From NCBI RefSeq assembly GCF_024494355.1, contig NZ_JAKNQY010000002.1, positions 1-64,000 on the forward strand: 64,000 nt of DNA. The letters are read 5' to 3'. Below are positions 19,529 through 39,575 of this stretch, piece after piece. The position numbers were made by a program, and so were the translations under genes. Source of the DNA: Pseudomonas sp. Q11 (lineage in GTDB: Bacteria; Pseudomonadota; Gammaproteobacteria; Pseudomonadales; Pseudomonadaceae). The notes beneath the pieces were generated by a model. That model did no database searches and was not told the DNA's origin. It saw only the letters and a list, made by a program, of their open reading frames with translations. Every line of letters begins with the position of its first letter. Positions within the stretch are counted from its first letter, which is position 1.

Positions 19529-19531
19529 CGT

Positions 19532-20260: not shown

Positions 20261-20337
20261 CGGGGCGTAGCGCAGTCCGGTAGCGCACTAGCATGGGGTG
20301 CTAGGGGTCGAGTGTTCGAATCACTCCGTCCCGACCA
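20261..20337 (+). tRNA. tRNA-Pro (anticodon GGG)
   Basis: The 77-base gene folds as a tRNA: acceptor CGGGGCG pairs with CGTCCCG, the anticodon arm CTAGC-ATGGGGT-GCTAG has a 7-base loop with anticodon GGG, the T arm holds GTTCGAATC, and an encoded CCA ends the gene. A Rho-independent terminator follows. It is the integration site of the island: its last part is repeated at 43460. Confidence 0.96.
20293..20333 (+). repeat. attL: 41-bp repeat inside tRNA-Pro
   Basis: These 41 bases, from the anticodon loop to the acceptor stem, recur without mismatch at 43460-43500. The pair marks the ends of the island. Confidence 0.9.
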
Positions 20338-20347
20338 TATTATTCAA

Positions 20348-20782: not shown

Positions 20783-21487
20783 TTATGCTGATTCGAGCTT
20801 CAACCAATCGAGCAAGGCGTTTTGAGCTTGGAGTGAAGCCTCAAAAGGAGCCATATGTCCACTGTCCTCGAATATCTTCAAATGGGAGCCGGTAACTCGG
20901 CTAGTTATGAATTCGTGCTGCGTTACAGGGCTCCATGCATCCTGCCGACCTACGCCAACCAGAGTGGGGCAATTGATAGCCGCTAGTTGCGGGGAGGCGT
21001 CCTTCCGATTCAGCAATGCCTTGATCTGACGCGCCAATATATCTGGCGTCATACGCAAAACCATTTCACGGAGTGGCTCAATGAAGGCAGCATTTTGGGC
21101 ATGCTTAGGAAGCAACATAGGCGGTAGCCAGTGCTCCACGACTGCGACCATGCCGTGTTGATACGCAAGGTCCACCAGCGCCTGGCGGGAATGACTTTCG
21201 CCAGATTTGACGGGGTGCACACCTGTGCTGAGAAGGGCTATACGGGTTATTCGTTGCGGCGCACGGCGGTAGACTTCGAGTGCAACTCGAGCCCCCATAG
21301 AATGACCTGCGAGCGAGAACCGATCGGGTGCTGCGTCTAGTACCCGCTCGGCCATCGCGCCTATTTCATCGAACCCGCTGAAGTCAATCGTCATGATTCG
21401 AGCGTGGCGTGCCAGACCTGGCATCACTTTCATCCAAATGGTGTCGTCACACATGAGACCTGACAGGAGTAAGAGATCTGGCTTCAT
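20783..21487 (-). CDS. Alpha/beta hydrolase
   Basis: This 234-residue cytoplasmic alpha/beta-fold hydrolase shows the nucleophile elbow GHSMGA (Ser near residue 63), an Asp in GVGRQDAW near 184 and the catalytic His in EDSGHMAPFE near 212. No signal peptide is present. It is the last gene of the minus-strand catabolic run, 100 bases after the transporter. An ester-cleaving step that frees an aromatic acid would fit, but the substrate is unknown. It is too general a fold to call as a ring-fission hydrolase. Confidence 0.8.
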   Translation of the reverse strand: MKPDLLLLSGLMCDDTIWMKVMPGLARHARIMTIDFSGFDEIGAMAERVLDAAPDRFSLAGHSMGARVALEVYRRAPQRITRIALLSTGVHPVKSGESHSRQALVDLAYQHGMVAVVEHWLPPMLLPKHAQNAAFIEPLREMVLRMTPDILARQIKALLNRKDASPQLAAINCPTLVGVGRQDAWSPVTQHEFITSRVTGSHLKIFEDSGHMAPFEASLQAQNALLDWLKLESA

Positions 21488-21587
21488 ATGCGGCTCGACT
21501 ACTGCTGCGGTTTAAACGCTTAGGCAGACTAATGGCTATTTTCACCGAGGGGGCTGCTGCTCGTTGCTATTGGGTTTAGCGAAATAT

Positions 21588-22913
21588 CTACGTTTTTTTG
21601 GCCGATTCCTGGAAAGGTATTAGCTTAACCAAGACGATCGCTGCAATGATCATAGGTGCCGAGAGAATCGCGATATACATGGTTTTATCGAGACCCATCG
21701 CTATCAGATACCCAGCTAAAAGCGGCCCTGCCACAGCGCCAAGCCGGCCCGCGCCCATGGCAATGCCGGTGCCAGTGCTTCGTACGTGTACAGGGAAGAC
21801 GCCTGGCACCAGTACGTAAAGCGAATTGACCGCGGAGAACAAGCAGAAGCCTACTGCAATGGCTGCTACCAGTAGAGCCATGCTCGCCCCCGGTGCGGCG
21901 GCAAACGCCACGGCGGTAATGACCAGCCCCAGCATGAATGCTGCAGCTAACGCTCTAGGCCCCAGTTTCTGAGCCAGAAAGCCATAGACCAAGCAACCTA
22001 CTATTCCCCCTAGGTTCATTAACAAAGAACCTGAAATTCCCATGGTTTGAGTCATACCACTCTGTGTGAGGATTTGCGGTGTCCAGCTGAGTAGGAAGTA
22101 ACAAGTCATCATGACTGTGAAATAAACGACGCTGGTGAAAAACAATCGACTGACCATGTCGCCACTCTTAAGCAACGCAAATAAGCCAGGCTTGGTGTCC
22201 GTTACGGAGTGATGAGTGGGAAGCAGGTCCAGTTGGGGCATTCCCATTTTCGATAAAATCCGGTTGCAACGTTCCAAAGCATTGGCCGGTTTTTTAGCAA
22301 TCAAGTAGTCGACCGACTCTGGCATGGCAATCCAGATGAGAGGAAGCAATAGCGCCGCGGCGCCAGCACCAAACAAATAAACCGACTGCCATCCGTACGC
22401 TTGAATGAGAAACACGGAAAAGATTCCGCCCAACGTAGCGCCTACTGGATACCCGAGCGCCATAAGCGAAACGCACAATGCTTTTCGGCGAGCCGACGAA
22501 TATTCAGTCACCATGATGTTCACATTGGCCAGAATTCCGCCAATGCCGATCCCCGTGACCACACGCATAAAAGCCAGCTCGCCGAGTCCGCTTGTAAACG
22601 CGGATAATCCCATCCCTACCAGCAATAGCATCATGCAAAACATGATCGTCGGCTTTCGCCCGACAATGTCGCCGATCGGCGCAACTGCAACAGCGCCGAG
22701 TCCCATTCCTGCCAGACCGGCACTGAATAAGAACCCAAGGTCGGTGGGGGCAAGTCCCCAATTTATCGATATTGCGGGACCGGTATAGGCCACCACAAGA
22801 ACGTCAAAGCCATCCAGGCCAGCAATAAGGGTACAAAGCGCAACGATCAATATTTGATAGTTACTCATTTTTCCCTGTTTGATAGTGTCCAAGATATCAG
22901 CAGCATTATTCAT
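21588..22913 (-). CDS. Aromatic acid:H+ symporter (MFS, AAHS family)
   Basis: This 441-residue transporter has twelve predicted membrane segments. The DGFD motif near residue 34 in the first segment and PIGDIVGRKPT between segments 2 and 3 are hallmarks of the aromatic acid/H+ symport family (PcaK, GalT, BenK). It would import protocatechuate, gallate or a related benzoate. It is encoded between ligC and the hydrolase on the same strand. The exact substrate cannot be told from sequence alone. Confidence 0.9.
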   Translation of the reverse strand: MNNAADILDTIKQGKMSNYQILIVALCTLIAGLDGFDVLVVAYTGPAISINWGLAPTDLGFLFSAGLAGMGLGAVAVAPIGDIVGRKPTIMFCMMLLLVGMGLSAFTSGLGELAFMRVVTGIGIGGILANVNIMVTEYSSARRKALCVSLMALGYPVGATLGGIFSVFLIQAYGWQSVYLFGAGAAALLLPLIWIAMPESVDYLIAKKPANALERCNRILSKMGMPQLDLLPTHHSVTDTKPGLFALLKSGDMVSRLFFTSVVYFTVMMTCYFLLSWTPQILTQSGMTQTMGISGSLLMNLGGIVGCLVYGFLAQKLGPRALAAAFMLGLVITAVAFAAAPGASMALLVAAIAVGFCLFSAVNSLYVLVPGVFPVHVRSTGTGIAMGAGRLGAVAGPLLAGYLIAMGLDKTMYIAILSAPMIIAAIVLVKLIPFQESAKKT

Positions 22914-22955
22914 TATTGTTCTGCCTTGTGATTGGGTTATTGATCAGTACGAACG

Positions 22956-23954
22956 TCAGTCCGTGGGTGGGGTGAAGCCTATGCGGGCGGGCATCGAATC
23001 CTGTATCGCACCCAGTAATCGGTAGCAGTTCATGACACCGCTCACACTGGAGCGCGGCTCGCGATCGTTGCGTATCGCATCGATGAACTCCCGATCCTGC
23101 AACTCGATGCCATCGGCATATGGACCGGTACTCGACAGGTCGACGGGCAACCCATAGCCATCGCTCAATTCGTCATACCGGGCAAGGTAGGTACCTCGAT
23201 CTCCGATAAAACGAAAATGACTACCAAAGGGGCCTTCGTTATTGAAGCTCAGGCTCAAGCTGCATAACGCTCCGTTGTTACTCTTGAGTTGCAATGAAAG
23301 GTCCATGGCGATCCCCAATTGCGGATCCAGAGGACCTTCCAGCACGTTCCAAGCAATGACTTCACTGTCTGTCTGATACTGAAAAAGGTCGACGGTATGT
23401 GCAGCGTGATGCCACAACAAACTGTCGGTCCATTGTCTAGGCTGGCCTTCGGCGTTCAGATTCTCACGACGCATAAAATGCGTGGAAACCACGAGATGCT
23501 GGAGACGTAGACGGTCCTCATATATCTGCTGATGGAGCCATTGATGAGAAGGATTGAAGCGCCGCGTGTGCCCGACCATCGCGACGCAAGAACTTTTGGC
23601 GCTTACCTCCAAGAGGCGTTCGGCATCAGGTAGGTTATCCGCCATCGGAATTTCCACCAGTACATGCTTGCCAGCCGCCAGGCACCGCATGGCCTGGGAA
23701 GCATGCAAGGGCGTGGGCGTACATAAAATCAACGCGTCGATATTTGGATCCGCCAGCGCAAAATCGAAATCGCAATAAGTCCTGTCAATACCATAGTGGG
23801 CTGCGAGCAAGCAGTTTTGTGCCTGATCGATACCCACCAGCGCTGTGACTACAGCACTCTCAATGTTTGCCAGCACGTCCAGGTGTTTTCGCCCAAACGC
23901 GCCAAGGCCTACCAGCGCAATCCGTACCCTGGCCCCGGTGTCTGAATCAGTCAT
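22956..23954 (-). CDS. ligC: 4-carboxy-2-hydroxymuconate-6-semialdehyde dehydrogenase
   Basis: This 332-residue Gfo/Idh/MocA oxidoreductase oxidises the ring-fission product of protocatechuate 4,5-cleavage to 2-pyrone-4,6-dicarboxylate with NAD(P). The Rossmann motif VGLGAFG is near residue 15. It matches LigC in the segments VEIPMAD, VGHTRRFNPSHQW, SLLWHHAAHTVDLFQYQ, LQLKSNNGALCSLSLSFNN and GIELQDREFI. I chose the ATG at 23954, giving MTDSDTGARVRIALVG. It overlaps the ligB stop by 8 bases, so ligA-ligB-ligC are translationally coupled. Identification is from recalled family sequence. Confidence 0.9.
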   Translation of the reverse strand: MTDSDTGARVRIALVGLGAFGRKHLDVLANIESAVVTALVGIDQAQNCLLAAHYGIDRTYCDFDFALADPNIDALILCTPTPLHASQAMRCLAAGKHVLVEIPMADNLPDAERLLEVSAKSSCVAMVGHTRRFNPSHQWLHQQIYEDRLRLQHLVVSTHFMRRENLNAEGQPRQWTDSLLWHHAAHTVDLFQYQTDSEVIAWNVLEGPLDPQLGIAMDLSLQLKSNNGALCSLSLSFNNEGPFGSHFRFIGDRGTYLARYDELSDGYGLPVDLSSTGPYADGIELQDREFIDAIRNDREPRSSVSGVMNCYRLLGAIQDSMPARIGFTPPTD

Positions 23955-24786
23955 TTTCCAGCACCAGCAGACCATAGGCTGTGTTGGAGACGGGGATATG
24001 GTGGAAGCGGTGCAGCTCGCGGACTCGCTCGTTCATAGCACCACGCATGATCAGCCACATCACGAGTTCGATACCTTCCGAGCCTGTTTCACGCAGGTAC
24101 TCGGTGTGTCCGATATTCAGAAGCGTGGCCGGATCACTAACGAATTGATCCAGCCACTGGAGGTCATACTCCCGGTTGGTCAATCCTGCCCGTTCGCCCT
24201 GAAGCTGATGGGACATGCCCCCCGTGCCGAAAATAGCGACTTTGATGTCTTTGTCGTAACTGTCGATGGCACGACGTAGTGCCCTGCCCAATTGGAAGCA
24301 GCGGTTACCCGTTGGGGGAGGGTATTGAATGACGTTCACGCACAAAGGGATCACCTTGCACGGCCATGCATCAGGCTGCCCGTAGGCCAACGATAATGGC
24401 ACCGTCAACCCATGGTCGACGGTCATGTCGGTCACCAGAGTCATGTCAAACTCGTCGAGAATCAGGGACTCGGCAAGGTGCCAGGCAAAGTCAGGATCAC
24501 CGTGCACTTGCGGCACAGGCCGTGGCCCATAACCTTCATCATGAATATCGAACGTCGCTCCCATGCCAAGGGCAAAGGTCGGGATCAGCGACAGATCGAA
24601 CTGCGAAGCATGATCGTTGTAGACGACGATACAAACGTCCGGCTTGTGCTCGGCAATCCACGCGCGTGCAGGTTCTACTCCGTCGAATAAGGGTTTCCAA
24701 TAGGATTCGCCGGTCTTGCCGTGATCGATTGCCGCGCCAATGGCTGGCACATGAGACGTGCCTATCCCGCCAATTAAGTCAGCCAT
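23947..24786 (-). CDS. ligB: Protocatechuate 4,5-dioxygenase, beta (catalytic) subunit
   Basis: This 279-residue class III extradiol dioxygenase opens protocatechuate between C4 and C5. Iron ligands are visible at His12 (TSHVPA), His59 (YNDHAS) and the Glu of GSEGIEL near 240. The acid-base His lies in GTGGMSHQLQG near 193. It matches LigB along its length (GPRPVP, LILDEFDMT, VDHGLTVPLS). The start at 24786 gives the correct N-terminus and overlaps the ligA stop by 8 bases. Gallate or 3-O-methylgallate could also be accepted, as family members vary. Confidence 0.93.
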   Translation of the reverse strand: MADLIGGIGTSHVPAIGAAIDHGKTGESYWKPLFDGVEPARAWIAEHKPDVCIVVYNDHASQFDLSLIPTFALGMGATFDIHDEGYGPRPVPQVHGDPDFAWHLAESLILDEFDMTLVTDMTVDHGLTVPLSLAYGQPDAWPCKVIPLCVNVIQYPPPTGNRCFQLGRALRRAIDSYDKDIKVAIFGTGGMSHQLQGERAGLTNREYDLQWLDQFVSDPATLLNIGHTEYLRETGSEGIELVMWLIMRGAMNERVRELHRFHHIPVSNTAYGLLVLEND

Positions 24787-25180
24787 GCATTTGCTCCTTC
24801 TTGCTGCGATTGCCAACGATGGAGCGACCGCCATCGAGCATCATTTTCTGGAACGCCTCGAGAGACATTCCGTTGCCAGACATGGCTGCACCTGCTTGCT
24901 GCATGCTCAGCCCATCGAAGATGGCCAATTTGAACGTGTAGTAGATGTTCCCACCCAGCCTCAACATTTCTAGCCATTCGCGCTGCATCACTGCGGCGTG
25001 TTGTTGTTCTGTCATCGGGTGACGCTGCAGATACCCCAAGGGGTCGCGTCGAAACGCCTCCCGGTTTTCAGCCAGGTCCAGAGATTTGCAGAACATATTC
25101 AGCGCATAGCCCTTACGATGGTGGCTACCGTCGAACACATAAGTGCCGGGTATGTCGTCGTAGTCTTTTGGCCGATTCAT
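24779..25180 (-). CDS. ligA: Protocatechuate 4,5-dioxygenase, alpha subunit
   Basis: This 133-residue small subunit caps the active site of LigB. Its sequence shows the LigA pattern: GTYVFDGSHHRKGYALNMFCKSL, FRRDPLGYLQR, MTEQQHAAVMQREWLEMLRLGGNIYY and QQAGAAMSGNGMSLEAF. Separate alpha and beta genes in the order ligA-ligB match sphingomonad and Comamonas clusters. Gallate dioxygenase GalA instead fuses the two. Confidence 0.93.
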   Translation of the reverse strand: MNRPKDYDDIPGTYVFDGSHHRKGYALNMFCKSLDLAENREAFRRDPLGYLQRHPMTEQQHAAVMQREWLEMLRLGGNIYYTFKLAIFDGLSMQQAGAAMSGNGMSLEAFQKMMLDGGRSIVGNRSKKEQMHG

Positions 25181-25232
25181 AGCGGCTCCGGTAAGAAAAA
25201 TCAGGGTTGAAAAGGCTGGTTTCGCCGATGAG

Positions 25233-26138
25233 TCATGCCCAATACAAACGTGTCGGGTTGTCGACCAGCAGCTTGCGTTGCAGCTCGGCGGTGATCGCTA
25301 TGCGTGGGATGACATCCACCAGCAGCCCGTCATCGGGCATGTGATCCTTGAGGTTGGGGTGGGGCCAATCCGTCCCCCAAAGCACTCGGTCAGGGAACGT
25401 TTCGACGACCTTTCGGGCAAAAGGAATGGCATCGCGATATGGATGTGATTCGCCATTCAAGGCCGCAGGCCCGCTGAGACTCAAACGCTCCGGGCAACTG
25501 ACTTTCGTCCAGATATTGGAGTGCTCGGTGAGCAAGCGCAGGAACAGGCCGAATGACGGTCCGTCAACATTCTCACCGACGTCCGGGCGACCCATGTGGT
25601 CGACCACCACTGGCAGTGGCAGACCAACGAAGAAATCCCAAAGCTCAGGTAAGTCCTGCGCCTCGAAATACACCACCACATGCCAGCCTAATGGCGCGAT
25701 ACGCTGAGCAATAGCCTGTAATTCTTCACGAGGAGTGAAGTCCACCAGTCGCTTGACGAAGTTGAATCGCACGCCCCTTACACCTGCGCTATGAAGCTCC
25801 TGCAATTCTTCGTCGGTTACGTTGTTCTTGAGCGTAACGACGCCACGAGCCCGACCGCCTGAGTGCAGCAAGGCGTCGACCAATGCTCGATTGTCACTGC
25901 CGTGGCAGGTGGCCTGCACGATCACACTGCGGTCAACCCCCAGGCGTCGGTGCAAGGCGAACAACTGTTCTTTGGACGCATCGCACGGTGTGTATTTTCT
26001 TTCTGGTGCGAAGGGAAAACTGGCCGCGGGACCGAACACATGACAGTGAGCATCCACAGCGCCCGGAGGCAATTGAAAGGATGGCTTACTTGGATCGGGG
26101 TGAAAATTAAGCCAGCCGGGGGTGATATCGCTAGTCAT
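25233..26138 (-). CDS. ligI: 2-pyrone-4,6-dicarboxylate hydrolase
   Basis: This 301-residue amidohydrolase opens the lactone 2-pyrone-4,6-dicarboxylate to 4-oxalomesaconate. It matches LigI closely: PPGAVDAHCHVFGP (metal-site HCH), VIVQATCHGSDN, GVRGVRFNFVKRLVD, VVVDHMGRPDVGE, and RVLWGTDWPHPN with the catalytic Asp, ending NPTRLYW. It lies between ligA and the tautomerase gene on the same strand, as expected for the pathway. Confidence 0.93.
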   Translation of the reverse strand: MTSDITPGWLNFHPDPSKPSFQLPPGAVDAHCHVFGPAASFPFAPERKYTPCDASKEQLFALHRRLGVDRSVIVQATCHGSDNRALVDALLHSGGRARGVVTLKNNVTDEELQELHSAGVRGVRFNFVKRLVDFTPREELQAIAQRIAPLGWHVVVYFEAQDLPELWDFFVGLPLPVVVDHMGRPDVGENVDGPSFGLFLRLLTEHSNIWTKVSCPERLSLSGPAALNGESHPYRDAIPFARKVVETFPDRVLWGTDWPHPNLKDHMPDDGLLVDVIPRIAITAELQRKLLVDNPTRLYWA

Positions 26139-26183
26139 GATTACTCTCGATGGAGGTGGAACGCTGCATTTTTTAGACTGGAA

Positions 26184-27317
26184 TCAGTCCATGAATCCAG
26201 GCCAGACGACCCGCGGGATGAAGACCTCACTGCGCATCAACAGCCGAGCGGTTCGTAACAGGGTGGCACTCGTCACCGTGGGGTCGCGACCGTCGGGGGA
26301 AGATTCAAGGCCCAGTTCCAGAGTGAATTCGCCTGTCGGGTGTTCCACGCTGACGGTCTGTTTAAGCCCACCGGACACCTCGGCCAGTCCGTCAGCTACC
26401 GTGCCGGTAAGGACGCAGGCGGTGGCGACGGTGACAGCGGCCAGCACACCGATAGCGTCGTGGCATACATGGGGAATAAAGCAGCGAGTGACGATGCTGC
26501 CACCTTGTAGCGGGGAGGCAATCAGACACATTTTTGGGTAGTTGCGCGCGCTGACGTCTCCCAGCCCCATCAAGTCGCCGCACACCAGTCGCAAAGCTTC
26601 AAGCTGGGTCTTGAGCTCGTCGTCGGCGTTAAGCATTGAAGTGGGTTCTGAACCTGTGCGCCCTAGCGCGCTGGCGGGAATGAGGACCATTGGCATGCCA
26701 TTGTCAATGCAAGTCACGTCCAAGGAGACGCCGTCCGGTAATGTGATTCGATCGCGCCGATTGCCGGTAGGCAGTAAACCTGAACAGACCGATCCGGCGG
26801 TTTCAAGAAAGTTGATACCGATAGGAGCAGCCTGCCCCGGTACACCATCGATGCGTGTGGCGCCCGCATATTCGACGTGACGCGCGTCACCGGAACTCGG
26901 CGTTTGTACGGTGATGTCACACTGCATTCCGGTGTTGAGTGTGAGTACACGCAATGTTGTCACATCGCCTTGGGCTTTAACCAATCCGCGCTCCAGGGCA
27001 AACGGCACCACGGCAGCGAGCATGTTGCCGCAATTGGCCGTGGTGTCGACTCGATCGCTGTCGGGCTGGAGTTGTGCAAAGAGAAACTCCAGATTCACAC
27101 CCGGAACATTACTGATACCAACAATGCCCACTTTGCTCGTCAGCGGATGGGCGCCACCCATGCCGTCAATTTGTCGACGATCGGGGGAGCCCATGATGGC
27201 GAGCAGGACACGATCGCGGGTAGGGATATCGCCCGGCAGATCAGCCCGATCAAAAAAAGGTCCGCGTGAAGTACCTCCACGCATGAAAAGGCAAGGGATC
27301 GAAGTCTGAGTCATCAT
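26184..27317 (-). CDS. galD: 4-oxalomesaconate tautomerase (PrpF family)
   Basis: This 377-residue protein of the PrpF/diaminopimelate-epimerase-like fold isomerises 4-oxalomesaconate so that it can be hydrated. It matches GalD/LigU in IPCLFMRGGTSRGPFF, RDRVLLAIMGSPD, IDGMGGAHPLTSKV, CGNMLAAVVPFALERGLV, EYAGATRIDGVPG and SFIPH-like CFIPHVCHDAIGV. Two ATGs lie side by side at 27317 and 27314; either may be used. It heads the sub-cluster running to the hydrolase, with 513 gene-free bases upstream. Confidence 0.9.
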   Translation of the reverse strand: MMTQTSIPCLFMRGGTSRGPFFDRADLPGDIPTRDRVLLAIMGSPDRRQIDGMGGAHPLTSKVGIVGISNVPGVNLEFLFAQLQPDSDRVDTTANCGNMLAAVVPFALERGLVKAQGDVTTLRVLTLNTGMQCDITVQTPSSGDARHVEYAGATRIDGVPGQAAPIGINFLETAGSVCSGLLPTGNRRDRITLPDGVSLDVTCIDNGMPMVLIPASALGRTGSEPTSMLNADDELKTQLEALRLVCGDLMGLGDVSARNYPKMCLIASPLQGGSIVTRCFIPHVCHDAIGVLAAVTVATACVLTGTVADGLAEVSGGLKQTVSVEHPTGEFTLELGLESSPDGRDPTVTSATLLRTARLLMRSEVFIPRVVWPGFMD

Positions 27318-27830
27318 TGTGCTCGCAATCGTCGCTTCTTATTAGTCAGGATGCAGAGGTGTTTAATTACCGCCGTCCCGTTAAATCATGATAGGTAGCC
27401 CTACCAAGTCCAGCAATGCGATCCGGAACATGACTGTTATCGAATAAAAGCATCGCTCAATTTGCTACTAGCATTGAGTGCACGAGTCGTCGCGGTATGA
27501 ATGGCATTAGCTGCCCCATACAGATCTGGTCATGCGAATTCCCATTGCACGTCGAGTCAAAACGCCAGTCCGAAGTGTCGGTTGTTGTCAAACTGCTATT
27601 CGGAGTAAATCGACTCATCCAAGCCGACGATGTTATTGGTAATAACTGCCTGCTCGGCTTGGAACCCTTTGTGTACTCCAGTTTTTCGGGAGTGCCCGAT
27701 TCAATGAGTTATATAAAAGTCTCTTGGATGAAGTTTATAGACAAGCAAGCTCGCATTGCAGTGAGTGTTAGTTTAAGTTTAATTTTAATGCGGCCCCGGC
27801 ATTAACCAGGGTCGGTTTAACAAACGTGTT
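27318..27830. other. Intergenic stretch between galD and galC
   Basis: No convincing gene on either strand in about 510 bases that look AT-richer than their neighbours. A short plus-strand frame (27497-27805) has no recognisable domain or ribosome binding site. The stretch must hold the galD promoter. Confidence 0.45.
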
Positions 27831-28541
27831 TTAGCCAGCGTTTTGATCTTGGTATTGAAGCAGGTCGTCGTAATAGACGAGTCCATGTGCCTGCAAGGTT
27901 GGGCGCATATCATAGATGTCCAGCCCAAGCTCGCCGCTGGCTAGCCGATTACGCTTGCCAATCTCCAGTGCTTCACGTTGCTTGGCTGCGGCGAGCACTT
28001 TCTCCACGTTTGAATGGGGCACTACGACAACACCGTCATCGTCAGCCACGATTGCGTCGCCGGCAACGATGTAAGCGCCGGCGCAGACGATTGGAACATT
28101 GACCGACCCCAGGGTAGCCTTGATCGTGCCCTTGGCACTGATCGCTCGCGACCAGACAGGAAAACCCATTTGGGTTAGCGTGGACACGTCTCGACAGCCT
28201 GCATCTATGATCAAGCCCCTCACGCCCCTGGCCATGAGCGAGGTCGCAAGCAGGTCCCCAAACATACCGTCTTGGTTTTCCGAGGTGCAGCCCACCACCA
28301 AGATGTCTCCAGGTTTGCACATCTCCACCGCCACGTGCAGCATCCAGTTATCACCGGGTTGAGCAAGGACAGTCACCGCCGGACCAGCAATCGCCGCGCC
28401 CTTGTAGATTGGATGCATGTAGGTCTGCAGCAGCCCGCTACGGCCCTGAGCTTCATGGACTGTTGCCACTCCCAATGCCGCCAGTTCCTCGCCGATTTGC
28501 GGGGAGAATCGCGGTAAATTTCGAATTGCGACCCCGCTCAT
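27831..28541 (-). CDS. galC: 4-carboxy-4-hydroxy-2-oxoadipate aldolase
   Basis: This 236-residue class II aldolase of the RraA-like (HMG/CHA aldolase) family splits 4-carboxy-4-hydroxy-2-oxoadipate to pyruvate and oxaloacetate. The family residues lie in [38 protein letters not shown] (Arg and Asp for metal and substrate) and [16 protein letters not shown] chose the ATG at 28541 because it gives the standard N-terminus [11 protein letters not shown] and overlaps the galB stop by 4 bases. Confidence 0.92.
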
Positions 28542-29272
28542 GACAAGTCTCCAGTTACACGTGGGAAGATGCTCTGATAGCCCTCTGCATAAATGATGTC
28601 GCGCTGGGCCGTGATTCCGATATTCCGCTTGGCTTGAACACCACGTTGTAAAGCTACACGGGTGTAGTACTCCCAGAGATGCTCCTGCCCGGCCATGCAT
28701 TTGATGGCGGCCAGCTTTTGCTCCCACACGGGCGTGATGTCTAGCAGTACGTCGGGTTTCCATTCGCACTGTTCCGGTTGATGCGGTTCGAAGCTGTAAA
28801 CCGGTGGGGCGCCAACGATTTTTTCCCCGGGCCGATAGCCCTCGGCTTGGGCAATGATGCGCGCTTCCTGGGTGAGGTGCGTCGCCAATGGATGGTCGTA
28901 GTTGTAGGGGTCCTTGAGAGAGTGGCTCAATGTAAATGCCGGCTGCACCCGTCGAAATACATCAGCCAGACGGAACAACACTTCTTTGTCCGCTCTCATT
29001 GGATAATCACCAATGTCGAAAAACTCGATACTGGCGCCAAGGATGTCTGCTGCAGCCTGGGCTTCGGCCCGACGTCCAGCCTTGACTTTATCTTCTGTCA
29101 TTTCACCTTTGCGCCACATCTTTGCCGACTCGCCCCTTTCGCCAAAGGACAGGCATACGATGTGAACTTTGTAGCCTTGCTGGGTATGCAGCGCAATCGC
29201 ACCAGCGGCGCGCCATACAAAATCGGCCGAATGTGCGCTCACCACCAGTGCGGATTTTTGTTCGTTTGACAT
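28538..29272 (-). CDS. galB: 4-oxalomesaconate hydratase (GalB type)
   Basis: This 244-residue protein of the PIG-L/LmbE zinc fold hydrates 4-oxalomesaconate to 4-carboxy-4-hydroxy-2-oxoadipate. Its N-terminus [16 protein letters not shown] and the later [16 protein letters not shown] match GalB of P. putida. It is unrelated in fold to the amidohydrolase LigJ used by sphingomonads for the same step. It is coupled to galC and lies downstream of the porin gene. Confidence 0.9.
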
Positions 29273-29298
29273 GTTGGAGTACCTTTGTCTTTCAATAA

Positions 29299-30192
29299 TC
29301 AGAAGAAGTAGCCAATACGCACAAAGCCTGAGTAATCGAACTTGTAGCCACCATCCACTTGCAGGTCGCGAGTAAGCTCGGAATACAGCTGCACGTCTGG
29401 CCTGATCCAGTAACCCAATCCGGCTCGCGCGCGGGTAGAGTCCGAACGTCTCCCGGTATCAATGCCATCCAAGGTCGAATCACCTCCCCAGGTTCGGGTC
29501 AACCCAATAGAAGTGGTGACCGTGTTGGCGAAGGTGTAACTGAGCCACGGTTGCAGGGTGTAGACAGGATCTTGCTTGAACGTGCGATTGACGGGGGTTG
29601 ATTCCGTATTGTCGCCGTACCAACTGACGTCGCCGGTCAGCTCAGCGCGCCAGGCGCCGAAGCTATGGACATAGCCGGCTTGCAGGGCGGCGGAATAGCG
29701 GTTGTTTCCCATGTTTACTTTGCTGTCGTGGTCATAGCTGCCCTGCGGCAAAAATAGGTAGCCGGTGATCCCCAGATAACGTTTATTTACCGTGTCGTTG
29801 AGAGGCCACGCTGTCACCGCCACGAATGGATCGGCCAGGCCTGAATCATCGCCAACATGGTTGCCGCTCACTTTCAGTTTTTGTGAACCGAAAGGCAGCC
29901 CGAGTTGCACCTGAACTCTCGTCTGGTCGATATCAATCATGTGGAACAGCCGAATCAGTCCAGTCCGGGTATCCAGTTGCGTGCCGTGGTCCAGGGTCGC
30001 GCCTTTTTCCGGGTGGTATTCAGTTGCCCGCCCACCTCCCAGATACAGCATTGCGATGCTGCTACCAGCCGGGGCGGGCAGGTAAGCACCGGGCGAGACG
30101 TCCAGCGCCCAGGCTTCTGAAAAACCGCCAAGCGAAGCGAATGCTCCGACGGGAATAGCGGCGTTGCGTATACAGCGAGGTAAAAAAATCAT
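29299..30192 (-). CDS. Outer-membrane channel-like protein (Phenol_MetA_deg type)
   Basis: This 297-residue exported protein has an N-terminal signal (IPVGAFASLGGFSEAWA), then alternating amphipathic strands (RVQVQLGLPFGS, ITGYLFLPQGSYDHD, YSAALQAGYVHSFG) and a terminal aromatic residue (FVRIGYFF). That is the pattern of an outer-membrane beta-barrel. It resembles the 'meta-pathway of phenol degradation' family found beside aromatic catabolic genes and probably helps substrate entry. I chose the ATG at 30192; the longer start adds a basic stretch before the signal. Confidence 0.8.
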   Translation of the reverse strand: MIFLPRCIRNAAIPVGAFASLGGFSEAWALDVSPGAYLPAPAGSSIAMLYLGGGRATEYHPEKGATLDHGTQLDTRTGLIRLFHMIDIDQTRVQVQLGLPFGSQKLKVSGNHVGDDSGLADPFVAVTAWPLNDTVNKRYLGITGYLFLPQGSYDHDSKVNMGNNRYSAALQAGYVHSFGAWRAELTGDVSWYGDNTESTPVNRTFKQDPVYTLQPWLSYTFANTVTTSIGLTRTWGGDSTLDGIDTGRRSDSTRARAGLGYWIRPDVQLYSELTRDLQVDGGYKFDYSGFVRIGYFF

Positions 30193-30315
30193 GCGTTGTC
30201 TCCGTTGTTGTTTTTGTTCGGAATACACGATCATTATTCTGGTGACTGTTACGAGTCAGACCATTAAGAAAAAGGCAGTGCCGGTGAGTGAGCGGGGTCA
30301 CTCGCCGGCTCCGGG

Positions 30316-31272
30316 TTAAAGGTCGAGAACCAACCGCTTGCTTTTGGCGCGTGAACAGCAAGGCGTGAATTGGTCGTTTGAGGTTTTTTCGCGATCACTC
30401 AGGTAGTAGTCCCGATGATCAGGAACCCCATCCAGCACCTTCGTCACACATGTGCCGCAGATGCCCTGTTGACAGGAAACCGGGATCTCGATACCCACCG
30501 CCAGCAACACATCCGTGACCGTTTGCTGAGGGCCGACTTCAAGAACCTGGCCGGTGCTTGCTACTTGGATCTCGAACTGATCACTGTTTTGTTCTTCGCC
30601 ACTAGCGGGCGCGCTAAAATATTCACGGTGCAGATTTGCCTCTGGCCAATGCAGTTCGCGTGCGACGCCGAGGACGAAATCCATGAACCCACCGGGGCCG
30701 CAAATGTAGAGATGCTTGTGCGGCTGCGGATGACTGAGCAACTCTCTGACGTCCAGGCGCGCCTGACCGCCATCGTCATCGAATTGGCATCGGCTGCTGC
30801 TGCTGTAGGACGACGCTTCGACTCGCTTGACGAATGCAGCGCTGGCGGCGCTCCGGGCGAAGTAGAAGAGGGAAAACGACTGCCCCTGATCACTCAAGAC
30901 TTCAGCCATGCTGAGGATGGGAGTGATGCCGATACCGCCAGCGAATAACAGGGAATGAGCGGCCTCCGGTTCCAGCTCGAACAGGTTGCGTGGTTCGCTG
31001 ATCCACACCGTTTGACCAACGTGCAAATCCTCATGCATGCCTTTGGAGCCGCCGCGGGAGTCTGTGGTTTGCAATACACCCAACTGATAGCGATGGCGTT
31101 CTTGCGGGTGGTTGCAGAGCGAGTACTGGCGAATCAGTCCAGGCCGGACTTGTACGTCGATGTGCGAGCCCGCCGTGAAGGGTGGCAACGCACTACCATC
31201 AGGGTGCTGGAACTCGAACAGAAAAATATTATCGGCTTCAAGCTCCTTGCGGGTAAGGGTGACCTCAAACAT
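30316..31272 (-). CDS. VanB-type oxidoreductase (FMN, NAD, 2Fe-2S)
   Basis: This 318-residue reductase passes electrons from NAD(P)H to the Rieske oxygenase next door. Domains in order are an FMN-binding barrel (RQYSLCNHP near residue 50), a nucleotide-binding domain (LLFAGGIGITPILSM near 110; YICGPGGFMD near 200) and a C-terminal plant-type ferredoxin with the cluster motif CQQGICGTC and a distal Cys. This is the phthalate-dioxygenase-reductase/VanB arrangement. The ATG at 31272 overlaps the oxygenase stop by 8 bases. Confidence 0.92.
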   Translation of the reverse strand: MFEVTLTRKELEADNIFLFEFQHPDGSALPPFTAGSHIDVQVRPGLIRQYSLCNHPQERHRYQLGVLQTTDSRGGSKGMHEDLHVGQTVWISEPRNLFELEPEAAHSLLFAGGIGITPILSMAEVLSDQGQSFSLFYFARSAASAAFVKRVEASSYSSSSRCQFDDDGGQARLDVRELLSHPQPHKHLYICGPGGFMDFVLGVARELHWPEANLHREYFSAPASGEEQNSDQFEIQVASTGQVLEVGPQQTVTDVLLAVGIEIPVSCQQGICGTCVTKVLDGVPDHRDYYLSDREKTSNDQFTPCCSRAKSKRLVLDL

Positions 31273-32602
31273 CACGACCTCCGCTGGTTTCAGGTGCGAA
31301 CAGGTGGTCCTCGGAGTGGAGCGTGCAAAACGCTTCCTGGCTGGTATTAGGGTCAATGACGCCTGTGATCACCACCATGTCTTTGAAGTTGTTTTCTTCG
31401 ATCGTGCGCACCACGCCGCGTGGATCCTTGCCTTCGAGTACATCGCGGGCGCCCTCGTCAAGCATCCGGCGTGCGCGCATGATCGCCACGTCCGTTGCGC
31501 CCAAATGCTCATGGGTATGATCGTGGATGACGCCTTGGGATTGGGTGATTGCAATATCGTGCACAGAGAAACATTCGCCCATGCCCAAGTAGGCAGCTTC
31601 TTTCATCGAATCGCGATCTTGCATAAAGAGCGGGTCATCGGCACGCAGCATGCGGTCGTGCTCATCTTTTTCGGCCTGGTATTGCTTCTCCAGACTTTCC
31701 TTATCGAGTTGTCCGCTGCGGTGATAGATGAATTCCCAACGCCAGTGTGCGTGGTCGTCGATCGGCACGTCCCACAACATGGTGAGCCCGCCATCTCCCA
31801 GGTAACCTTCAAATCCACCGACCGCACAAGCGTTAGGCATGACGTAATTCGTGATTCGGATTGAGGTGTCGCGGGTTTCGCCAATGGCGCGCTTGGTATA
31901 AAGACGAACGCCGAACCGGGTGTCTTCGATGCTGATGATCGGACGCGCTTTGTTTGAAAATACACCCCAGCGCGCCTGCATGGTTTCGTCGGCCAGATTC
32001 ACCTGGTGCAGATAGGAGGTGTGCACCGGGTCAATGTTGCCTTCACTGGCTTGCAGCCAGTTGCAGTCACCCCGCCAACGGCAGGTATAACGGTGTTCAT
32101 CACCGCCTGCGAGCGCCGGATAGTTAGGAAAAATCGGCGGCTCGCCAGGCCCCATGTAGACCCAAAACGCACCGGCTGCTTCATGCAATGGATAGGAGTG
32201 AGTGCGTACCTTGTCCTTCGCAGTGGCGGAATGTTCCGCCGGTTGATCAAGGCATTTGCCTTTCCCGTCGAACAGCCAGCCGTGATATGGACAGCGCAGA
32301 CCGCCATCTTCGATACGACCCAAAGCCAGGTCTGCGCAGCGGTGCGCACACTTGCGATTGATCAGGCCGACTTCACCTTTATCATCGCGAAACAGCACCA
32401 GGTCTTCGCCCATGATCCGCACAGGGAAAGGCGCCGAGCCGGGTGGTACGGCATCAGCCAGAGCAACGGGCTGCCAGTAGCGGCGCAGGAGTTCGCCGGC
32501 CGGTGTTCCGCGGTTGGTGCGGGTGAGATATTGGTAGCGTCCAGGGCCGCGCTCGTCGGGAATGCTGTCTTGAACCACAGGGATCAGGCTTGTCTGGTCC
32601 AT
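31265..32602 (-). CDS. Rieske non-heme iron oxygenase, large subunit
   Basis: This 445-residue oxygenase has the Rieske ligands Cys85-His87 and Cys104-His107, and the mononuclear iron ligands His194 and His199 with bridging Asp191 (EGNIDPVHTSYLH). Its start (GTPAGELLRRYWQPVA) and length place it with the phthalate 4,5-dioxygenase/phenoxybenzoate dioxygenase/LigX-type O-demethylase group. No dihydrodiol dehydrogenase is encoded nearby. A reaction giving protocatechuate or gallate directly (O-demethylation or angular attack on an ether) is therefore more likely than cis-dihydroxylation (inference). It is first in the minus-strand operon, divergent from lysR. Confidence 0.9.
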   Translation of the reverse strand: MDQTSLIPVVQDSIPDERGPGRYQYLTRTNRGTPAGELLRRYWQPVALADAVPPGSAPFPVRIMGEDLVLFRDDKGEVGLINRKCAHRCADLALGRIEDGGLRCPYHGWLFDGKGKCLDQPAEHSATAKDKVRTHSYPLHEAAGAFWVYMGPGEPPIFPNYPALAGGDEHRYTCRWRGDCNWLQASEGNIDPVHTSYLHQVNLADETMQARWGVFSNKARPIISIEDTRFGVRLYTKRAIGETRDTSIRITNYVMPNACAVGGFEGYLGDGGLTMLWDVPIDDHAHWRWEFIYHRSGQLDKESLEKQYQAEKDEHDRMLRADDPLFMQDRDSMKEAAYLGMGECFSVHDIAITQSQGVIHDHTHEHLGATDVAIMRARRMLDEGARDVLEGKDPRGVVRTIEENNFKDMVVITGVIDPNTSQEAFCTLHSEDHLFAPETSGGRDV

Positions 32603-32819
32603 CTTTTAAATCCTGTTCTTGAAGTACCGAACTACCGGGAGGAGTGAACCTGCGCAGGCGGACGGTTACGTTTTTATTGGAGGCCCATTAGTCATGAGCT
32701 GGGGTCAACAGTGAGGGCTAGCGGCGGAGTCGATCAATGACGCACCGCCACTAGCAGTTATGCAAAATTTCGATAACGCTGTTCGCTAGTGCTTGTAGTT
32801 GTGATACCAGCCGGTGGGG

Positions 32820-32885: not shown

Positions 32886-33830
32886 ATGGACATCAAACAG
32901 CTTGAATATTTCAGTCAGGTCGCGGAACTGGGTAGTTTCAGTAAGGCATCGGCTTTTCTCGATATCGCTCAACCGGCACTGAGCCGTCAGATCCGCCAGT
33001 TGGAAATCGAACTGCGCACGTCACTGTTCGAGCGCACAGGTCGTGGCGTTACGCTCACGGCGGCGGGCACCCGTTTGCTCAAACATTCGCGAGGCATTCT
33101 TCGGCAAATCGATCTGGCTCGAGCCGACATTGATCAACACCGAAATGTCGCCGAAGGGCGTTTGGTTCTGGGCTGGCCACCCAGTTTGGGGCGCACCGCT
33201 ACGGTTCCATTGGTAGAGGCGTTCCGTGAACAGTTTCCTGGTGTGACGCTGTGCCTGGTGGAGGGGCTGTCGACCCATATTCTCGAGTGGTTGGGTATTG
33301 GCCGACTCGATTGCGGAGTGGTCTATAACACCATGCCTACGGCGAATGTGGATCTCCTGCCTCTGGCGGAAGAGCCACTGTTTCTGATCTCGCCGCGCAC
33401 CCCAGACGACGATGTCACGATTGGCGGATCTATCAGCCTTGAAGCGCTCGCCGAGCTGCAATTCATCATCCCGGGACGACCGAACAATATTCGTCTCTTG
33501 CTTGAGCAGTCCCTGGCGACGGTGGAGCGAAAAATCAAAGTTCGTTACGAGATAGAGAGCATCCCGGCCATCCACGAGCTGGTGCGGCGGGGACACGGCC
33601 ACGCACTCCTGCCAATGAACGCCATCGGTGATGATAACTGTCACCTCGACAAACTTCTGAGTGTTCGGGCGATAGAGCCGGAACTGGCCACCAGTCTTTG
33701 GTTGGCCACTTCGACTCATCGGCCATGTAACCTGTTAACCCAGCAAGCATTAGGACTTATCGACTCAGTGATTCGTGAAGAAATCCGACAAAGGTCCATC
33801 GCCGTGCGCTCACTGATGCTACCCGTCTGA
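32886..33830 (+). CDS. LysR-family regulator of the island
   Basis: This 314-residue regulator has an N-terminal winged helix (MDIKQLEYFSQVAELGSFSKASAFLDIAQPALSRQIRQLE) and a substrate-binding effector domain. The protein resembles the GalR/Nac-like branch of LysR regulators of aromatic catabolism. It is the only regulator in the island and is divergent from the oxygenase operon. It is the likely activator of the minus-strand catabolic genes; the effector may be a pathway intermediate. Confidence 0.9.
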   Translation: MDIKQLEYFSQVAELGSFSKASAFLDIAQPALSRQIRQLEIELRTSLFERTGRGVTLTAAGTRLLKHSRGILRQIDLARADIDQHRNVAEGRLVLGWPPSLGRTATVPLVEAFREQFPGVTLCLVEGLSTHILEWLGIGRLDCGVVYNTMPTANVDLLPLAEEPLFLISPRTPDDDVTIGGSISLEALAELQFIIPGRPNNIRLLLEQSLATVERKIKVRYEIESIPAIHELVRRGHGHALLPMNAIGDDNCHLDKLLSVRAIEPELATSLWLATSTHRPCNLLTQQALGLIDSVIREEIRQRSIAVRSLMLPV

Positions 33831-34098
33831 GCGATGCTTTTATTCGATAACAGTCATGCGCCAGATCGCATTGCTAGTGTCCATTGGCCTCCCTACCATC
33901 GCTTCACAGGACGGCGGTTACATGCCGTTACGCTCTGACCAATAAGACCTTTTTGCCTTCGATTCGGCATGAGCGAAGTATCAAGCTTGCTGGGGGTATA
34001 CCGGCATGATTGCGCCCTAAAAAATTACACTAACGACTATCCGGTTTCGGCTTAGTTACCTTGCTGTCGCCTCACCATAAAAATAAAAGAGAGGGAAC

Positions 34099-35286
34099 AT
34101 GAACAATACGTTCAGGCATTACGTCGTCCGGACTTTGGCAGGTTGTATGGGAGGCTTGGTGTTAGGCGCTCCAGCGATAACACAGGCTTCCAACGGTCTA
34201 TATACCGATGGGCAAGGGTTGAAAAGTGTGACGATGGGCGGGGCTGCAATTGCATTGCCACAAGACTCCATGGCCGCTGCTTCTAACCCGGCAGGCATGG
34301 CTTATGTAGGTAATAGAGTTGACGGGGACATTCAACTGTTCATCGGCAGCAATGAGGCGACTTACGGCTCCCCGGACAATCGTCTGCGCGGCCATAAAAC
34401 AGTCCCTATTCCCGAGTTTGGTTTCAATTACGACCTTTCACCGAAGTTAAGCGTTGGTGTGTCCTCAATTGGTGCAGGTGTGGGCTGGGACTACGATGGC
34501 CCGTTGTTTCAGAATCAGGGGTTGCCACGGTTTCAGGCGATGCTTAAACAGGTCGGCGTTGCACCGACATTGGCGTACAAAGTGACTGACAACTTTTCGG
34601 TAGGTGTTTCAATTACTGCGGCCTACCAGTCACTGTTTGTGCGAGGCGCTGCGTTGCCGACACCTGCTGGTCCAGCCATATTGCCAAACCACGGCACCCA
34701 AGGCGCTTGGAGTTATGGGGTCCGCCTAGGTGCATTGTGGACTCCCATTGCTCCTCTGACACTGGGTGTTTCCTATATCAGTAAACAGAAAGCCAGCAGC
34801 TTCGACGGCTACAAGGATGATCTATTGGCGGTCTCCGACGGCAAGCTCGATAGTCCCGAGATTCTCGGTGCCGGATTGGCTTGGCGACCCACCGACAAAC
34901 TGACAGTTGCATTCGATTACAGGTTGATTCGCTGGTCAGAGGTCGAAGCATTGAACAGTGACCAGACCTTCGGTTGGCGCGATCAGCACAACATGCGCCT
35001 GGGGTTGGCCTATCAACTCAATGATCAGTGGACGGTTCGTACGGGCATCAATTACGCCAACCGTCAGTACGCCAGTGATTCGCTCGTCGCCAACATTCTG
35101 ATCCCCGGGCTGCTGCACAAGTCCTACAGCGCTGGCGTGACACGCACGATAGGCGATAGCGGGGAGGCGACCTTTGGATTGGTCAAGGACATCAGTGAAC
35201 ACGTTACTGGCACCGGCAAAAGCAGCGGTTCGACCATCGACGTCAAGTACGGCTATGTCGTGATGGGTTATGGCTACAAATTCTGA
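34099..35286 (+). CDS. OmpP1/FadL-family outer-membrane transporter
   Basis: This 395-residue exported beta-barrel protein has a signal peptide (residues 1-31) and the FadL start NGLYTDGQGLKSVTMGGAAIA, with the DSMAAASNPAGMAYVGNR hatch segment and a C-terminal aromatic strand (YVVMGYGYKF). Relatives such as TodX import hydrophobic aromatics. AGAGAGGG precedes the ATG. It begins a plus-strand run with an aldehyde dehydrogenase and a GMC oxidoreductase. Confidence 0.9.
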   Translation: MNNTFRHYVVRTLAGCMGGLVLGAPAITQASNGLYTDGQGLKSVTMGGAAIALPQDSMAAASNPAGMAYVGNRVDGDIQLFIGSNEATYGSPDNRLRGHKTVPIPEFGFNYDLSPKLSVGVSSIGAGVGWDYDGPLFQNQGLPRFQAMLKQVGVAPTLAYKVTDNFSVGVSITAAYQSLFVRGAALPTPAGPAILPNHGTQGAWSYGVRLGALWTPIAPLTLGVSYISKQKASSFDGYKDDLLAVSDGKLDSPEILGAGLAWRPTDKLTVAFDYRLIRWSEVEALNSDQTFGWRDQHNMRLGLAYQLNDQWTVRTGINYANRQYASDSLVANILIPGLLHKSYSAGVTRTIGDSGEATFGLVKDISEHVTGTGKSSGSTIDVKYGYVVMGYGYKF

Positions 35287-38444: not shown

Positions 38445-39575
38445 ATGAGTATATGTACCAGGCGAGCTCTGGCTGTCGTGACGTTGGCGCTGGTGGCTAT
38501 CGCCGTATTCGGCGCATTGAGCACCGACGAGCGTTTTGCCCGGCGGTGTTTCACCGTATTGGCCATTGGCTTGCTCGTGACGTCCTGGCAGGTAAACCGG
38601 TATCTGACGAGGCTATCTGTAGTCTGTGAACACGCGGTAGCTGTGGCGCAGACGATGGGTGGCGGTGACTTTAGCCAGGAACCTATTACAGCAAAGGGGG
38701 GGAGCGGCTGGGAAGTTGCGCAGACCCTGTTAGATGTCCAATTGAGTTGGCGAGCGAGGTGTTTACAACGCTGCGAACAGGAGCAGACATTGCGGGGCTC
38801 AGCCCGATCATTGAATGACCAGATTCTTTCCATCGCTGACAGCACCGGCACTCAGGCAACGGGTGCTCTGACAATGGCACAAGCGTTGGAGTCGATGGGT
38901 GCTGCAATCAGTCAGATTGCTGGGCAGGCTATCACTGCGAAAAGTATTTCAAGTCAGTCGGAGCTCTTGGCCCAAAAAGGTAGCGACGTGATTGCCAACG
39001 TCATCGGGGGTGTTGAGGGGATCGTCGAGGCTGTCAATCAGTCCTCTACCCGGATTGTCGCCCTTGGACGATCCTCTGAGGAAGTTCATTCCATTATCCA
39101 GGTCATAAGAGGCATCGCTGAGCAGACAAACCTGTTGGCACTGAATGCTGCCATTGAAGCCGCACGAGCAGGGGGCGCCGGTCGAGGATTTGCCGTAGTG
39201 GCCGACGAGGTCCGTAACCTGGCCGCCAGGACCGCACAATCCACCCGGGAAGTGACTGAGATGATCGAGCGCATAAGAACTCACACGACGCAGGTGGTGG
39301 ACAGTATGCAAGCGGCAGTCATGCGGGCCAATAATGGCGTTGCATTGGCAAAAGAAGCGGGGCTCGCCATGGAGCACATCCGCGAAGGTGCACACTCATC
39401 GGCGATACTTGTGGATGAGATTTCCCAAGCGTTGAGTAACCAGACTGAAGCAGTAGTGGAAATAGCTTCACGGGTAGATGTCATGGCGCGAAAGTCTCGC
39501 AGCAATAACCTTTCCATACAAAGTCTGGCGCAAGCGTCGCAACAATTGGAAGTAGACATTTTTTCAGTGAGTTAG
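38445..39575 (+). CDS. Methyl-accepting chemotaxis protein without a sensor domain
   Basis: This 376-residue protein has two hydrophobic segments close together (residues about 7-25 and 35-50) and then a cytoplasmic signalling domain. The hairpin tip [23 protein letters not shown] is conserved; the usual EQGRGF that follows is GAGRGF here. There is no periplasmic ligand-binding domain and no room for one. It could sense the membrane or redox state, or be a truncated receptor. It follows the GMC gene by 30 bases. Confidence 0.85.

Follow-up and report, generated by a model that had tools for sequence, protein, structure and literature searches.

A tRNA-Pro genomic island of Pseudomonas sp. Q11 with a predicted protocatechuate 4,5-cleavage pathway, a gallate-type hydratase and an attached Rieske oxygenase module

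Cleavage of the plant-derived compound protocatechuate (PCA) at the 4,5 position already has a precedent in Pseudomonas: PMC8431788 cites a title (Maruyama 2004) on the PCA meta-degradation genes of Pseudomonas ochraceae (straminea) NGJ1, and a figure legend there gives pmdE and ligJ together as the 4-oxalomesaconate (OMA) hydratase. For Pseudomonas sp. NGC7, PMC12314914 places GalD-GalB-GalC after MgaAB and MgaC in syringate catabolism. Here we describe a locus of Pseudomonas sp. Q11 that is a variant of the known 4,5-cleavage pathway, situated in a window of 64,000 nucleotides (contig NZ_JAKNQY010000002.1, positions 1 to 64,000, forward strand) of a 6.19-Mb genome in 99 contigs. Compared by description with the Comamonas-type pmd operon and NGJ1, the locus has in common separate LigA and LigB, a putative LigC, LigI, the tautomerase and the aldolase. 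It differs in its hydratase, which is GalB and not LigJ, in its division into two blocks, of which the second has a LysR-type site to itself, and in an attached Rieske/alcohol/aldehyde module. A literature search, the coverage of which left out most subscription papers, found no paper on such an island.

The best explanation, to which we assign a rough probability of 0.77 as a whole, is a genomic island of about 23 kb, put into a tRNA-Pro(GGG) gene by a now decayed tyrosine integrase, that would encode a self-contained catabolic route from an alcohol through a benzoate to PCA and on through 4,5-cleavage, with GalB in place of LigJ and under one LysR regulator. The same figure covers the view that the lower pathway is of PCA-cluster type, with its hydratase displaced by a gallate-type GalB.

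Lower pathway and its hydratase

The predicted lower half is well supported by protein family. LigA exceeds its NCBIfam cut-off (TIGR02792, 121.1 vs 108.6 bits), as do LigB at the subfamily level (NF009903, 445 vs 317), the OMA tautomerase (NF033377, 496 vs 440) and the 4-carboxy-4-hydroxy-2-oxoadipate (CHA) aldolase (TIGR02798, 348 vs 304.5). The best PDB matches are protocatechuate 4,5-dioxygenase 1b4u for LigB (7.5e-119; gallate dioxygenase, 3.9e-80), 2-pyrone-4,6-dicarboxylate hydrolase 4d8l for LigI (2e-100) and 4-oxalomesaconate hydratase 5cgz for GalB (8.7e-140); the best NCBIfam match of LigI is 4-sulfomuconolactone hydrolase, far under the cut-off (222 vs 500). LigC is a Gfo/Idh/MocA oxidoreductase, the gene of which follows ligB here, in the related Pseudomonas genome G121 and on plasmid 2 of Paraburkholderia caribensis MWAP64; none of the curated models assigns it a function. 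PCA-type LigA and LigB, LigI, the tautomerase and the aldolase, by which 4,5-cleavage is recognised, are all present; the hydratase is the PIG-L protein GalB and not the LigJ type of Comamonas and Sphingobium. All genes for the steps from PCA to pyruvate and oxaloacetate lie within 22956-29272.

In the predicted sequence of reactions, LigAB would cleave PCA at the 4,5 position, LigC would oxidise the semialdehyde to 2-pyrone-4,6-dicarboxylate, and LigI would open this to 4-oxalomesaconate. The GalD-type tautomerase would then isomerise 4-oxalomesaconate, GalB would perform the hydration in place of LigJ, and the aldolase would release pyruvate and oxaloacetate. A gap of 513 bp (27318-27830) divides the minus-strand genes into two blocks, and galD is preceded by a predicted LysR-type site of its own. 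The genes are transcribed in the order Rieske oxygenase, reductase, outer-membrane protein, galB and aldolase, the ATG of the last overlapping the galB stop, and, after the gap, galD, ligI, ligA, ligB, ligC, the MFS transporter and the alpha/beta hydrolase.

To place the hydratase, the 80 best LigB loci were surveyed, many of them truncated where the contig or the 10-kb flank ended. LigJ (at least 40% identity) occurred in 54 and GalB in four, with no locus carrying both; among the 35 loci with ligI, ligC, galD and galC, 31 had LigJ, three GalB and one neither. Use of GalB in PCA 4,5-cleavage loci is therefore a minority state and not unique. The P. caribensis plasmid carries a LigJ protein (2gwg, 2.4e-201), and no GalB was found in the stretch read; G204, the third Pseudomonas genome with LigA over the cut-off, likewise has LigJ. 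The same pairing as in the island is found on the Azospirillum brasilense plasmid p3 (L189), in a galB-galC-galD-ligI-ligA-ligB run that differs from the island in sequence (GalB 61% and LigB 49% identical) and in which no Rieske relative was found. The island galB DNA was matched by 10 Azospirillum records, one of which was opened.

A gallate pathway, with LigAB serving as gallate dioxygenase, is very unlikely. Relatives of GalB, GalC and GalD are common to gallate catabolism, the island GalB is of the gallate type and the genome has no other galB; against this, the dioxygenase subunits LigA and LigB are separate proteins of the PCA type, and LigC and LigI are not known to have a role in gallate breakdown. 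The gallate pathway was rejected on the type of LigAB and on the fused GalA dioxygenase, which was not found: the LigB-family matches of the genome are two, the present one and a 272-aa frame on contig C8, which is too short for a fused GalA. This second LigB-family protein (L121, G000:C8:24692-25366) scores 124 bits.

The alpha/beta hydrolase gene at 20783-21487 is possibly that of an ester hydrolase for a methoxylated ring-fission product, and the cluster may serve methoxylated substrates also or mainly: LigAB would cleave 3-O-methylgallate too, the hydrolase would act on the methyl ester as MgaC does, and the branches would meet at 4-oxalomesaconate. The protein has MenH/PcaD similarity, and PMC12314914 presents MgaC as an alpha/beta hydrolase with a MenH domain that feeds into GalD-GalB-GalC. 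Proteins 37-46% identical to it occur within about 3 kb of LigB in 6 of the 80 loci, in one of them (L060) directly after a second LigAB-like pair. The likeness to MgaC is drawn from its description, however; LigB is of PCA type by the E-values given above, LigC would be idle on that branch, and no hydrolase relative was found in the P. caribensis stretch. We consider this reading unlikely.

Beyond the window, the genome encodes PcaH over its cut-off, with an adjoining related frame that is presumably PcaG, and PobA, also over its cut-off, so that genes of both PCA routes are present. The initial annotation had proposed a complete gene set for 4,5-cleavage to pyruvate and oxaloacetate, with a PIG-L hydratase instead of LigJ, as an unusual alternative to 3,4-cleavage in the genus; each of these points agrees with the families, cut-offs and counts reported here, LigC by family and place.

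Gene lineages and distribution

Pseudomonas gallate (gal) clusters resemble the island in that galB lies beside galC; they differ in having a fused GalA dioxygenase and in carrying GalD and, by tree only, GalC of another lineage. The stretches read contain no LigA or LigC and no strong LigI. For comparison, 34 gallate-type loci were read: 32 genomes of the genus with a GalA-type match, Pseudomonas oryzihabitans, and a Pantoea plasmid stretch that shows galBCD but no galA. GalB was available from 33 of them, one being lost at a contig end. With these 33 the island GalB shares 76-88% identity, against 54-63% with six others, and by identity and distance it is of the gallate type. In a 22-row tree it is nested among gallate GalBs (96/97), and its exclusion from them is weakly rejected by the approximately unbiased (AU) test (p=0.041).

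GalD, by contrast, shares 65-68% identity with tautomerases from PCA clusters (P. caribensis, Propionivibrio, Polynucleobacter and Marinospirillum) and 51-56% with 33 of the gallate type; the tree groups it with the former, and grouping with 14 gallate rows is rejected (AU p=3e-5). For GalC the values are 58-65% against gallate proteins and no more than 66% against others outside G121, so identity does not decide its lineage; in the tree it falls in a clade of 23 rows that includes none of the 20 gallate rows (100/98). GalD belongs, and by tree GalC appears to belong, with enzymes of other PCA clusters and not with those of Pseudomonas gallate clusters. The initial annotation had pictured a Pseudomonas gallate galBCD block joined to a sphingomonad/Comamonas ligABCI block, and had suggested a phylogeny of each protein as a check. 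This was run for GalB, GalC and GalD, and the Lig/Gal hybrid survives in part: GalB is of gallate type, GalD is of PCA-cluster lineage, and for GalC the tree and the AU test differ. The adjacency of galB and galC and the type of GalB would fit the transfer of a whole block; the identities and AU result of GalD do not, and none of the 33 compared gallate clusters has a GalD closer to the island than those of PCA clusters. Wholesale galBCD transfer is rejected for GalD and disfavoured by the tree for GalC, though there the AU test does not reject it (p=0.08), and the joined-block version is improbable. Nor is the mixture of Lig and Gal proteins unique, given the Azospirillum plasmid and the four LigB loci with GalB.

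LigA over its cut-off is found in three of 398 genomes of the same genus, a grouping made by the tool itself: the strain's own (G000), G121 and G204. A match below the cut-off occurs in 35 more, with 34 of their 36 matches falling in frames as long as the fused gallate dioxygenase (423-492 aa). The 17 compared island genes are the same in G121, at 76-99.6% amino-acid identity, with nonsynonymous divergence (dN) of 0.002-0.137 and synonymous divergence (dS) of 0.43-1.26, calculated with our own Nei-Gojobori script. The dN/dS ratio is at most about 0.12 in all 17 and 0.003 in galB; all 17 are under purifying selection. A recent transfer of GalB between G121 and this strain, which the 99.6% protein identity might suggest, was rejected: its dS of 0.72 is like that of neighbouring genes, and the identity thus reflects strong constraint. 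That the cluster was acquired and is now decaying and without function is extremely unlikely; of the integrase a remnant is left, but the reading frames are intact and the dN/dS values speak against decay.

The gene set is far beyond chance, because all of the lower-pathway genes recur in G121 and all but galB in P. caribensis. Gene order differs in G121: there the galD-to-hydrolase block comes first, upstream of the one that runs from the chemotaxis receptors to galC, and a Mutator-family transposase gene stands about 1 kb before galD. The two operon blocks appear to shift as units, each together with a LysR-type site (L118, L119). No donor was found: G121 aside, the highest identities seen are 77% for LigB and 72% for the Rieske protein. 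The closest named LigB seen is that of plasmid pBHB of Comamonas sp. 7D-2 (77%; L182 12001-12840), where LigAB comes directly after pobA and the rest of the pathway is not among the genes listed nearby. A near-identity plasmid search returned no close copy: 12 of 72,556 records matched, with coverage of no more than 4%.

Proposed Rieske front end and shared promoter site

The plasmid stretch of P. caribensis (L168) shares with the island the lower genes, apart from the hydratase, and the upper module, which there is in the order lysR-Rieske-reductase-FadL-aldehyde dehydrogenase-GMC-methyl-accepting chemotaxis protein. Identities to the island are 72% for the Rieske protein, 66% for the GMC protein, 62% for the aldehyde dehydrogenase, 68% for GalD and 74% for LigI; it differs in its LigJ-type hydratase and in having two LysR genes, and no relative of the MFS transporter, the MetA-type porin or the alpha/beta hydrolase was found there. 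The fadL, aldehyde dehydrogenase and GMC genes come after the reductase gene both in P. caribensis and in a further genome, G1093. G904 has the Rieske gene followed by an MFS-like gene and then by reductase, porin, LigA and LigB (the MFS and porin names being read from translations).

The pocket of the Rieske protein was mapped onto solved relatives. The chain of 7fjl, which we take to be the phthalate dioxygenase of Comamonas testosteroni KF1, fits the published residue numbering without an offset. That numbering is from PMC12445078, on the isophthalate dioxygenase of the same strain, in which 9ina is named once; with a 23-residue offset, all ten residues named there fit the 9ina chain. The island protein belongs to the same Rieske family as the two KF1 enzymes and keeps the carboxylate-binding Arg that they have in common (R249, corresponding to their R234 and R244), whereas the second-carboxylate ligands are replaced (R207 by V214, H257 by M275). 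As one of the two carboxylate contacts that mark a phthalate dioxygenase is kept and the other lost, a substrate with one carboxylate may be expected, and the pocket suggests an uncharacterised substituted benzoate. All ten mapped residues are identical in five of five members: the island, G121, P. caribensis, G904 and G1093.

The group is rare. The Rieske protein is 95% identical in G121; relatives at 71-72% occur in two of 399 genomes of one family of the same taxonomic class; and among 617 plasmid records matched, one (P. caribensis, 72%) exceeds 60%. In a phylum sample, 20 of 398 genomes, the strain's own included, have a match at E 1e-60 or better, the best other at 43%. We tentatively suggest, at somewhat less than even odds, that the Rieske protein and its four relatives (at least 71% identical) form an uncharacterised specificity class that would turn a mono-carboxylate benzoate, derived from a hydrophobic aromatic alcohol, directly into PCA, either through O-dealkylation or through a dioxygenation in which a substituent is lost, paired here with GalB-swapped 4,5-cleavage, so that two PCA routes would compete in each cell.

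Phthalate and isophthalate are disfavoured as substrates by the pocket residues and also by the island genes, among which no recognisable dihydrodiol dehydrogenase or decarboxylase occurs. Vanillate alone is disfavoured as the reason for the Rieske gene, as a VanA_C protein is encoded elsewhere in the genome; G121 lacks a VanA_C protein, so this argument is weak. In the proposed upper half, an aromatic alcohol would enter through the FadL- and MetA-type porins, the GMC dehydrogenase and the aldehyde dehydrogenase would oxidise it to a substituted benzoate bearing a single carboxylate, from which the Rieske oxygenase and reductase pair would form PCA. The best solved relatives of the GMC protein are oxidoreductases of several alcohols and name no substrate.

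Upstream of galD lies a 48-bp stretch that has a 94% identical copy upstream of fadL. A pattern, GTTATCGAA-N5-GCAT, was drawn from these two stretches and the lysR-Rieske intergenic region. At up to one mismatch it has exactly three matches in the 64 kb, one per promoter, where 0.06 would be expected, the pattern having been fitted to them. In G121 the same three promoters each have a match with one mismatch (about 0.45 expected per stretch), and three further matches, each with two mismatches, lie inside genes. LysR-type sites have a T-N11-A form, and the site spacing fits it. A single LysR-type site at three promoters would tie the front end to the lower pathway, the one LysR regulator probably acting on all three. 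The island LysR is 49% identical to the P. caribensis LysR beside galD and 39% to the one beside its Rieske gene.

Several observations weigh against the proposed island-wide route. For the link between the halves, the sole match to the site in the P. caribensis stretch (one mismatch; 0.79 expected when up to two are allowed) precedes a porin gene, and the site was not found there before galD, the Rieske gene or fadL; G1093 carries the upper module but no LigAB on its 24-kb contig. Together these weaken the link. The upper half from alcohol through benzoate to PCA is read from neighbouring genes, the role of LigC from family and position, and the MFS transporter falls under its cut-off. As to lineage, a 41-row GalB tree does not nest the island protein with gallate GalBs (AU p=0.42 for gallate rows alone, p=0.23 for the island with gallate rows), and a grouping of the island with PCA-associated GalBs (p=0.06) is not rejected at 0.05, so that GalB may be nested among gallate GalBs or sister to them. 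Gallate kinship of GalC is not rejected by the AU test either, at p=0.18 with 77 rows and p=0.08 with 72, the smaller set leaving out ten loci (long-branched, distant or duplicate) and rows below 52% identity, with gallate rows thinned.

Island boundaries and surroundings

A tRNA gene with a direct repeat at the far end, as expected of a tRNA-targeted island, was found at tRNA-Pro (Table 1). Beyond the 41 bp, a second repeat stretch matches at 87% (20347-20407 and 43511-43571). The tRNA-Pro locus was also searched in 18 other genomes of the genus, and in every one the match breaks off somewhere within window 20337-20446. The G+C content is 55.1% in the island and 58.8% in window 1-20000. Beside the right repeat, 42811-43460 has matches in 13 of 59 genus genomes, its own included, and over 393 bp shares 88-92% identity with G016 and G017. 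The same frame start runs on for 502 codons in G017, as a phage (tyrosine) integrase with PF00589 and PF13356, and for 170 codons in G016. The window holds a 74-aa piece in place of an intact integrase, and neither Pfam nor PHROGs gave an integrase domain in it. The placement in an island by the initial annotation is borne out by these ends. The frames that it delimited, 20783-32602, are as described, and the functional unit is larger, taking in 32886-41545, with the island extending from the tRNA-Pro gene (20261-20337) to the repeat at 43459-43499; the upper-pathway half, the attachment repeats and the site shared by three promoters had been left out.

Table 1. Features of the island and its insertion site (window positions)
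Feature	Position	Strand	Basis
tRNA-Pro (GGG), island insertion site	20261..20337	+	ARAGORN
left attachment repeat, 3' part of tRNA-Pro	20293..20333	+	41-bp perfect direct repeat of 43459-43499
alpha/beta hydrolase, PcaD/MenH-like	20783..21487	-	far below PcaD cut-off
aromatic acid/H+ symporter family MFS transporter	21588..22913	-	TIGR00895 333 bits, under 418.6 cut-off
ligC, putative 4-carboxy-2-hydroxymuconate semialdehyde (CHMS) dehydrogenase (Gfo/Idh/MocA)	22956..23954	-	PF19858, PF01408; directly after ligB
ligB, protocatechuate 4,5-dioxygenase beta subunit	23947..24786	-	NF009903; PDB 1b4u
ligA, protocatechuate 4,5-dioxygenase alpha subunit	24779..25180	-	TIGR02792 over cut-off
ligI, 2-pyrone-4,6-dicarboxylate hydrolase	25233..26138	-	PDB 4d8l 2e-100; PF04909
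galD/ligU-type 4-oxalomesaconate tautomerase, PCA-cluster lineage	26184..27317	-	NF033377; PDB 6p3j; tree
predicted LysR-type site upstream of galD	27436..27453	+	GTTATCGAA-N5-GCAT; one-mismatch counterpart in G121
CHA aldolase (GalC/LigK/PmdF type)	27831..28541	-	TIGR02798; PDB 3noj; tree
galB, PIG-L type hydratase, gallate-cluster type	28538..29272	-	PDB 5cgz; identity to gallate GalBs
outer-membrane protein, Phenol_MetA_deg family	29299..30234	-	PF13557
Rieske oxygenase reductase (FAD, NAD, 2Fe-2S; VanB-like)	30316..31272	-	44% to PDR/VanB family reductase, P. caribensis
Rieske oxygenase, LigXa_C/phthalate-dioxygenase type	31265..32602	-	PF00355, PF19301; best PDB 9ina
predicted LysR-type site between lysR and Rieske gene	32760..32777	-	pattern; one-mismatch counterpart in G121
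LysR-type regulator	32886..33830	+	domain family match; 49% to LysR beside galD, P. caribensis
predicted LysR-type site upstream of fadL	33834..33851	-	pattern; one-mismatch counterpart in G121
FadL/TodX-type outer-membrane transporter	34099..35286	+	PF03349
aldehyde dehydrogenase	35316..36791	+	domain family match
GMC-family alcohol dehydrogenase	36813..38414	+	domain family match
methyl-accepting chemotaxis protein	38445..39575	+	domain family match
methyl-accepting chemotaxis protein	39896..41545	+	domain family match; DNA counterpart in G121
tyrosine integrase gene remnant	43104..43328	-	likeness to frames in G016 and G017
right attachment repeat	43459..43499	+	perfect 41-bp copy of tRNA-Pro 3' part

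An AFG1-like ATPase gene (PF03969) at 41701-42810, inside the island, adjoins the integrase remnant. The tRNA-Pro(GGG) gene is an apparent island hot spot in the genus, with tRNA-end repeats adjoining integrase-like sequence in G016, G017 and G018. The pheS-pheT region left of tRNA-Pro is 86.5% identical over its whole length to positions 2000-5421 of Pseudomonas phage record MT121966.1 (host Pseudomonas sp.), which carries a pheS-pheT region, and a prophage may thus use the same site. To the right, 43500-47000 is missing from 11 relatives save for short matches (any match in 5 of 11), so more accessory DNA seems to follow the island. Read from translations, 44105-63732 appears to be a second accessory catabolic stretch, with a xanthine-dehydrogenase-like molybdenum enzyme and cytochrome c (49499-53400), an alcohol dehydrogenase, an acyl-CoA dehydrogenase, an acyl-CoA ligase, a citrate-synthase-like protein, an enoyl-CoA hydratase, electron-transfer flavoprotein (ETF) subunits and two LacI-type regulators (54572-55732 and 62635-63732).

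The main interest of the locus lies in the enzyme displacement and in the unassigned Rieske group. The former offers a clear candidate case in which one enzyme family is replaced by an unrelated one, LigJ by GalB, in an otherwise conserved set. The latter is a group with no known substrate that seems to feed PCA, and may be useful for the conversion of lignin and pollutants. A natural strain with genes for both PCA routes would, in addition, be of use for 2-pyrone-4,6-dicarboxylate production.

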